A DNA stretch of 64,000 nucleotides. Origin: Haladaptatus sp. R4. GTDB taxonomy: Archaea; Halobacteriota; Halobacteria; Halobacteriales; Haladaptataceae. Positions 6,771 to 48,952 of this stretch are shown here, piece after piece. The stretch covers positions 806,001 to 870,000 of the forward strand of contig NZ_LWHG01000021.1 in assembly GCF_001625445.1 (NCBI RefSeq), written 5' to 3'. The notes under the pieces were generated by a model. The model was given only the letters and a program-made list of their open reading frames with translations, did no database searches and was not told where the DNA came from. Both the position numbers and the translations under genes were made by a program. Within the stretch, counting starts at the first letter, position 1, and every line of letters starts with the position of its first letter.

Positions 6771-7457
6771 ATGTCACGGCGTGGAACGACTGCCGCACAA
6801 CAGTTCTACGGACGGTGGGCGCAGTTATACGACCTCCTTGCAGTGGCGACGCCCGGCCTCTCCGAACTCCGAAGTCGAGTCGCCGACGAACTCCACCTCT
6901 CGCCCGGCGATACGGTGATCGAGATGGGCTGTGGGACCGGCGCGAACTTTCCCCATCTGCGGGAGCGCGTCGGCCCGGCAGGTCGCGTCGTCGGCGTCGA
7001 TTTCACGCGGGGGATGCTCGAACAGGCACGGGACAGAATCGACCGCGAAGGCTGGGAGAACGTCCACGTCGTGCAGGCCGACGCGGCGACGTCCTCGCCC
7101 CGCGAGGACGTCGACGCCGTCCTCGCCACGTTCGTCATCGGGATGCTCGGCGACCCGCACGGCACCGTCACCCGCTGGCTGGACGGAATCCGTCCCGACG
7201 GCCATCTCGCGCTCCTCGACGCCGGGCGGAGTTCACGGACCTACTCGTGGCCCGTGAATCTGGCTTTCAAGGGACTCGTTCTCGCCTCCACACCCGGCGA
7301 TATCAGCGCGTTCGAAAAACCGCCGTGGTACGTGCTGGACGAACGAATCGAGGAGTCGCGGCGGGCGCTGTCGGCGGGAGCAGTCGATGTTCAGGATAGC
7401 GAGCACGCGCTGGGCGTGGTGCGAATCACGGGTGGACGAGTGGCGGAGAGTCGATAG
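6771..7457 (+). CDS. Class I SAM-dependent methyltransferase
   Basis: 228 residues from the ATG at 6771; a longer in-frame extension reads through non-coding DNA. The SAM-binding motif I VIEMGCGTGANF lies near residue 47, with the acidic VVGVDFTRGML after it, and post-motif regions VQADAATSS and DAVLATFVIGML. The C-terminal part carries a hydrophobic stretch, as in UbiE-like and phospholipid methyltransferases. The substrate cannot be told. A TATA-like element about 27 bp upstream fits a leaderless mRNA. Confidence 0.88.
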   Translation: MSRRGTTAAQQFYGRWAQLYDLLAVATPGLSELRSRVADELHLSPGDTVIEMGCGTGANFPHLRERVGPAGRVVGVDFTRGMLEQARDRIDREGWENVHVVQADAATSSPREDVDAVLATFVIGMLGDPHGTVTRWLDGIRPDGHLALLDAGRSSRTYSWPVNLAFKGLVLASTPGDISAFEKPPWYVLDERIEESRRALSAGAVDVQDSEHALGVVRITGGRVAESR

Positions 7458-47862: not shown

Positions 47863-48351
<489 letters not shown>

Positions 48352-48408
48352 GTCACTTGATTAGACGGGATCGCATTTAAAAGATAACCCGAAACCGGAA
48401 GTGAAACG

Positions 48409-48483
48409 CCAGGTTTTACGACGGTCGAAAGCCAGCGGGCGGCCAATTTGGCCGCCCGCTGGCCGTCTCCCTGTAAAACCTGG
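48409..48483. other. Nested 75-bp perfect stem-loop
   Basis: Outer arms CCAGGTTTTAC (48409-48419) and GTAAAACCTGG (48473-48483) pair perfectly. Inside, GCCAGCGGGCGGCCA (48431-48445) and TGGCCGCCCGCTGGC (48449-48463) pair perfectly around the loop att. Together one long folded structure in a non-coding gap: a transcript hairpin, a terminator of unusual size or a small inverted-repeat element. Confidence 0.8.
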
Positions 48484-48509
48484 ACCAAAAGCACTCCTCC
48501 TTCATTTCG

Positions 48510-48584
48510 CTGGCTGACTCGCAGTGTGAGTCAGCCAGTTCCATTCAGTCGTCGGCCCGCTCGCTCCTTCGTCGCTCGCGGGCC
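48510..48584. other. Two further hairpins next to the nested stem-loop
   Basis: CTGGCTGACTC (48510-48520) pairs with GAGTCAGCCAG (48528-48538), loop 7 nt. GGCCCGC (48554-48560) pairs with GCGGGCC (48578-48584). With the nested structure they fill the gap between mptD and the DUF5790 gene. Confidence 0.7.
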
Positions 48585-48610
48585 AACAGGGCGGAAATCG
48601 ATTTTTCTTC

Positions 48611-48952
48611 TCACTTCTCCCGAACCGACTCGATTTTCATCAGCGGGTAGCCGTCCTCCATTTCCATCCGGGTCACGACTTCGGTGTCCTCGTGGTCGAT
48701 GATGATTTCGACTTCGAGGTATTTACCCGTTAATTCAGTATAGCCGTGGTCGATTTCGTCCGCGAGTTTCTCGGTCAGGATGTCCACTTCGACCGATTCG
48801 CAGAACGGCTGATTCTCGATGCTCTCCTCGATTGCGCGTTCGAGGCTGTCGGCGCTGTCGGGGCTGACCGGCGTTCCGGCGAACTGGTGATAGAGCGCGC
48901 CGAACTTGATTCCCGCTTCGAAACAGGCCGCGTCTCGGGTCGTCGGTTCCAT
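48611..48952 (-). CDS. mptD: Archaeal dihydroneopterin aldolase, MptD family
   Basis: 113 residues from ATG 48952: MEPTTRDAACFEAGIKFGAL, QFAGTPVSPDSADSLERAIE and YTELTGKYLEVEIII. Length and sequence match the archaeal aldolase MptD, unrelated to bacterial FolB, which makes 6-hydroxymethyl-dihydropterin for pterin cofactors. Divergent from aIF2-beta. Confidence 0.85.
   Translation of the reverse strand: MEPTTRDAACFEAGIKFGALYHQFAGTPVSPDSADSLERAIEESIENQPFCESVEVDILTEKLADEIDHGYTELTGKYLEVEIIIDHEDTEVVTRMEMEDGYPLMKIESVREK

Follow-up and report, generated by a model that had tools for sequence, protein, structure and literature searches.

Within the window (the whole 64-kb stretch of DNA analysed here), a series of stem-loops occupies the gap between two genes of the minus strand. 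On one side lies a DUF5790 gene (47863..48351; PF19103 in Pfam), which in this genus has the element on its upstream side. On the other lies an mptD-type dihydroneopterin aldolase gene (48611..48952; PF04038 in Pfam), whose transcripts would enter the element from the side of the third hairpin. A conserved, promoter-like region upstream of the DUF5790 gene (48375..48406, minus strand; ATTTAAAAGATAACCCGAAACCGGAAGTGAAA on the plus strand) abuts the element. All features of the element are given for the plus strand unless stated. The first hairpin (hp1, 48409..48483), which is the core palindromic hairpin of the family described below, is closed by a perfect 11-bp outer stem (48409-48419/48473-48483). 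This is followed by an asymmetric junction (48420-48430/48464-48472) and an inner palindrome with 16-nt arms and a 1-nt spacer (48431-48446/48448-48463), equivalent to 15 bp (48431-48445/48449-48463) with a usable 3-nt loop. The second hairpin (hp2, 48510..48538) has a perfect 11-bp stem (48510-48520/48528-48538) and a 7-nt loop, its 14-nt arms being 93% matched, and the terminal hairpin (hp3, 48554..48584) has the 7-bp stem GGCCCGC/GCGGGCC (48554-48560/48578-48584). All four arm pairs listed in an earlier sequence-only reading of this DNA are present. These stem-loops are real and far exceed what chance would produce: the 16-nt-arm palindrome is alone in the window among perfect hairpins with arms of at least 14 nt (loop of at most 10 nt), and simulated first-order Markov sequence gives an expectation of 0.1 per window for arms of at least 12. 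RNA folding gave z-scores of -7.9 (whole gap) and -8.3 (core), and 0 of 200 shuffles were equally stable. The sole other perfect hairpin in the window with arms of at least 12 bp (12 bp, 3-nt loop) lies at 7087-7113.

The outer stem of hp1 carries short T-tracts on both strands. TTTT in the 5' arm (48414..48417) is a candidate termination signal for rightward transcription, and AAAA in the 3' arm (48475..48478), which is TTTT on the minus strand, is a candidate signal for leftward transcription. The unpaired ACCAAAAGC that follows hp1 (48484..48492) is near-invariant among copies and reads GCTTTTGGT on the minus strand, giving a second T-tract there. The linker CCATTCAGTCGTCGGCCC (48541..48558) is also common to other copies (e.g., L009, L010 and L013), while hp2 is variable, other copies carrying different hairpins in its place, and many copies have GGAAAATCnnnGATTTTCC instead of the hp3 sequence. 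Such conserved unpaired linkers between hairpins can be detected by comparing copies and are invisible from a single copy.

The block is one copy of a dispersed, order-wide haloarchaeal family with hundreds of copies across salt-loving archaea. A DNA search of the 4.9-Mb genome that contains the window returned strongly similar copies sharing the junctions and differing in their stems. A short-motif search combined with a covariance model (R1), built from 13 copies, brought the number to about 28 in this genome. The window hp1, itself among those 13 copies, scored 80.9 bits against R1 (E 7.6e-14, own genome). Copies elsewhere, for which the sequence-only reading had proposed a search, occur well beyond this genome: R1 matched 33 of 40 relatives, representing 12 of 19 genera, and many of these genomes carry tens of copies. 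When sampling was widened across the order and the filters were made stricter, 79 of 146 genomes, from 30 of 56 genera, had matches. A phylum-wide draw gave, outside the order, one weak match each in only three small genomes. No Rfam family was found at the gathering threshold in 20 copy-bearing loci, nor near threshold in the window region, and a distant blastn search of a plasmid collection returned no match, the variable stems limiting its sensitivity. The family is apparently undescribed: no description of it was found in the literature, incompletely covered, on haloarchaeal palindromic or intergenic repeats, terminators, PATE and MITE repeats, intergenic RNAs and REP/RAYT systems.

Comparison of the copies defined a common anatomy, consisting in order of CCA-CC-TTTT, a freely exchanged palindromic stem, AAAA-TC-TGG, the unpaired ACCAAAAGC, a variable hairpin, GGCCCG and a terminal hairpin. 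The three closing pairs are CCA/TGG and also GCA/TGC, GAA/TTC or CGA/TCG; inside them come a two-base mismatch, the TTTT/AAAA pairing, one to three more pairs and a short asymmetric junction, after which the palindromic stem can have any sequence. The palindromes are perfect, with tiny loops, and some copies (L188, L189, L194) contain two extra hairpins within the main one. The copies are strand-asymmetric, the conserved flank being on one side only. The length of the A-run in the unpaired segment grows with that of the T-run in the arm (rho 0.42, the copies not being independent).

We then considered where the copies lie relative to genes. Of 224 distinct cores, 129 start between -2 and +20 nt from a sense stop codon, mostly between -2 and +4. 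A further 58 precede a divergent start codon by about 10-67 nt, most of them by about 37-48 nt. These counts are approximate, since they rest on crude acidic-ORF gene calls. Divergent as well as convergent gene borders are occupied, and several copies directly follow apparent tRNA 3' ends, as judged by eye. The position persists with orthologous genes: among orthologous 3' ends, model matches lay at the stop codon for 21 of 30 PAPS-reductase loci and 17 of 30 phoU loci, against a background of only some tens of copies per genome. The loci extend to another genus and to a different family, and their stems are unrelated even though the element is retained. At several orthologous loci the stop-codon bases themselves are used in the closing stem (e.g., TGAAC...GTTCA). 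At one phoU 3' end (L264, genome G007), the last phoU codons and the 5' part of the element are duplicated in tandem.

A family that has T-tracts on both strands, lies precisely at gene edges, stays with orthologous genes and exchanges its stems freely is most simply read as a terminator and insulator acting in both directions. We estimate at about one half the probability that the block is a two-way T-tract terminator/insulator, belonging to a dispersed family whose stems are swapped among copies. Each copy offers a palindrome with a short T-tract on each strand and an unpaired AAAA just after it, followed by one or two more hairpins. RNA polymerase arriving from either side would meet T-tracts beside a stable palindrome and halt, which would keep the transcript of one gene out of the neighbouring gene or its promoter. 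At this locus, leftward read-through from mptD into the DUF5790 promoter would be blocked, as would rightward transcription from the DUF5790 side. Copies in a genome would trade stems, possibly through gene conversion, and in this way sequence would turn over without loss of shape or position. The family itself, its anatomy, its covariation, its placement and its persistence beside orthologous genes rest on direct observation, whereas termination and insulation, and the part of gene conversion in stem exchange, are inferred. As expected of a candidate terminator, T-tracts can be read on both strands, with a near-invariant T4-A4 and the second minus-strand tract in ACCAAAAGC, and most cores lie at 3' ends or between transcription units (the 129 at stops and the 58 upstream of divergent starts).

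In Haloferax volcanii, termination in vivo was seen with both kinds of signal: 95% of transcripts stopped at a T-stretch with C at its end (T5C) and 59% at the tested hairpin (PMC7237163). The termination sites of that species resemble the present family in having a T-run next to C (TTTTNC), hairpins near 3' ends and intergenic positions. In the available part of that study, however, they are presented as isolated motifs, and no dispersed, covarying, stop-codon-locked family is described. Four observations argue against a terminator. Most copies have no more than T4, a shorter tract than the T5C assayed in Haloferax; some are situated between divergent genes, with no obvious need for termination; T-runs after genes are not enriched in the window (6 of 39, with 8 for the A-run control), so that T-tract termination does not show up there as a general rule; and the arm T-tract precedes the main stem in both directions, unlike the arrangement of a bacterial intrinsic terminator.

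The family could instead be a non-autonomous mobile element resembling MITEs or small mobile repeats, its hairpins serving as recognition ends and its bias to gene borders arising from the loss of other insertions. We consider this unlikely on the whole. The element is multicopy, its orientation varies, inward-facing pairs are common, and its presence at the DUF5790 site differs between genomes. In two of the facing pairs (L223 and L233, genome G017), 0.4-1 kb apart, the cores are identical, which suggests local conversion or an inverted-repeat element. Furthermore, 5 of 228 copies (L075, L076 and L084 in the own genome, L187 and L206 in two relatives) lie between direct repeats of 27-77 bp that consist of the 3' end of the adjacent gene: one repeat stops a few bases short of the element, and the other comes after its last hairpin. 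Such a layout suggests that the gene end was duplicated on insertion or through template switching. Against mobility, the exact position is kept at orthologous stop codons across genera with unrelated stems, a pattern that recent insertion does not give. The Y1 (RAYT) transposase PF01797 was found in control genomes but not in the own genome, which is about 96% complete; no autonomous relative was seen; the plasmid search, of limited sensitivity, was negative; and the copies covary rather than being near-identical. Persistence at orthologous stop codons thus speaks against a currently mobile repeat, although the element may have been mobile in the past. The small inverted-repeat element offered by the sequence-only reading is borne out as regards its multicopy nature.

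Known repeats were compared on the same features. REP/RAYT palindromes are likewise dispersed and extragenic, with some facing pairs and compensatory stem changes (PMC2817692). The present family differs from them in lacking a GTAG/GTGG-type head (its head is CCACCTTTT-like), in being far larger and composite, in having stems that are not near-identical within a genome and in the lack of a Y1 transposase in its own genome. None of the REP/RAYT features examined (cognate transposase, head type and near-identical copies) was found. The nearest haloarchaeal repeats are the PATE, SMR and MITE repeats of Haloquadratum, which are also transposase-free, palindromic and multicopy (PMC3119063). PATEs resemble IS605 ends and are without target duplications (PMC3119063); the comparison with such IS605-derived elements covered the Y1 transposase, which had no match in the own genome. 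MITE-like facing pairs are present in our family, with flanking direct repeats, in the form of gene ends, in just the five copies above. Unlike these Haloquadratum repeats (PMC3119063), the family persists at orthologous gene borders and exchanges its stems. The intergenic repeats of virus HF1 were rejected as relatives, being AT-rich promoter repeats.

The pairing within the element could instead reflect selection on one RNA strand. Covariation between the arms, which the sequence-only reading had named as something to look for, is strong. In 107 distinct aligned copies, standard pairs fill 94.2% of pair cells, the alignment being fitted to the model in a way that favours structure. In the same model-fitted alignment, 421 cells are changed on both sides, with a shuffled mean of 120, and the covariation score is 0.488 vs 0.128 for shuffled copies and at most 0.070 with slid partners. 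Whereas the pairs next to them change freely from one type to another, the four T-A pairs stay almost constant, so this part of the stem is constrained in sequence as well as in pairing. Selection on one RNA strand should leave isolated G·U pairs greatly outnumbering A·C in stems. Counting as isolated those mismatches with two flanking Watson-Crick pairs on each side, we found 33 G·U vs 36 A·C in the 224 distinct cores, 21 vs 21 in sense copies at stop codons and 9 vs 12 in antisense upstream copies. A smaller first pass had given 14 G·U vs 6 A·C in the sense class, an excess that was gone with more copies, and no strand-specific asymmetry in wobble pairs was found by orientation class in the 224 cores. 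For rough comparison, 27 of 417 bracketed pairs were G·U in 19 tRNAs taken from the fetched loci, although the ARAGORN brackets may omit A·C by design.

The equal rarity of G·U and A·C points to strand-symmetric pairing, which would follow if the DNA itself or both strands are what counts, and away from selection on one RNA. It looks as though the palindrome acts as DNA, the hairpin is used from both strands, or stems are replaced as blocks instead of one base at a time. A one-strand structured RNA, such as a 3' UTR element stabilising mRNA, directing 3'-end processing or binding a protein, would fit the sense-strand position right at stop codons (129 of 224 cores), the strong compensatory change and the conservation of the unpaired ACCAAAAGC. 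The mismatch counts, the 58 antisense copies upstream of genes and the lack of an Rfam family weaken this part of the sequence-only reading and make it distinctly improbable. The family is a warning that covariation alone is no ground for calling an element a structured RNA. Stem turnover without wobble intermediates, the presence of the same stem at several sites in a genome and the identical cores of facing pairs suggest exchange between copies, and gene conversion is perhaps the mechanism.

The strand symmetry of the pairing, the perfect palindromes with tiny loops and the occupation of divergent as well as convergent borders would also suit a DNA-structure site, that is, a palindrome that forms a cruciform or binds a protein and serves DNA topology, the nucleoid or recombination at gene borders rather than termination as such. 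The invariant part of the stem is, however, exactly the T-tracts, the copies are strand-asymmetric with a conserved one-sided flank, and no known haloarchaeal protein of such a kind can be named, so that we give this reading only a slim chance. A replication or recombination site, as the sequence-only reading had also offered, found no support here.

The terminator/insulator proposed above need not belong to mptD. Among genus members, a ATTTAAAA...CCGAAACnGnAAGTGAAA block upstream of DUF5790 is conserved, and the element directly follows this upstream region in five genomes (G000, G003, G004, G006, G008), with a stem type that varies between species. Two others (G005, G007) have a degenerate element at this site, and in G002 unrelated AT-rich sequence stands in its place. 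It was absent from the DUF5790 site in the genomes of other genera examined and from three DUF5790 loci of a scan of named organisms. In several relatives (L122, L124, L126, L127), the element and mptD are separated by a gene judged RibD-like by eye, which places the element at the DUF5790 border. In the window's genus the element is thus tied to the DUF5790 promoter and not to mptD. The RibD-like gene is missing from the corresponding position in the window (48585-48611), and mptD now reads straight into the element in this lineage. An extended terminator private to mptD, for which that arrangement speaks, is contradicted by this synteny and by mptD orthologues of other genera that were without the element, and is hardly credible. 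The termination region for mptD suggested earlier was probably right in kind, as to termination, and wrong in being specific to mptD. An apparent remnant of the RibD-like gene was seen in L126.

A bolder and less probable reading is that haloarchaea of this order share a punctuation system whose marks at gene borders are DNA palindromes rather than RNA folds. Position would be inherited with the gene for a very long time, and stems would be swapped again and again among the dispersed copies. This possibility would imply a dedicated factor recognising the palindrome and T-tracts, and a process of copy exchange that is also able to duplicate gene ends. Archaeal termination is usually described in terms of T-runs and a factor. 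An element that is conserved, acts from two sides and is fixed at stop codons and promoters would form a separate terminator/insulator class that can be tested. With tens of natural variants in each genome, and with orthologous sites that have or lack the element, such a class would lend itself to direct comparison. The family is also a clear case of wholesale sequence replacement while shape and position are conserved.

Two smaller repeats were noticed beside the copies. A recurring module, GGAAGA(C/G)...(G/C)TCTTCCGTGCTCTCGTTCGCTTCGCTCACGAGAAC, is inserted in the hp2 region of L238, L243, L059 and others, in genomes of different families. In the window's own genus, a degenerate tandem repeat of about 25 bp, of the GGTGGTTGTCTCACCGGCCGTTTCG type and elsewhere CTAGCGGTTGTGTCG..., lies 3' of the element (L193:2223-2300 and the tails of many copies).
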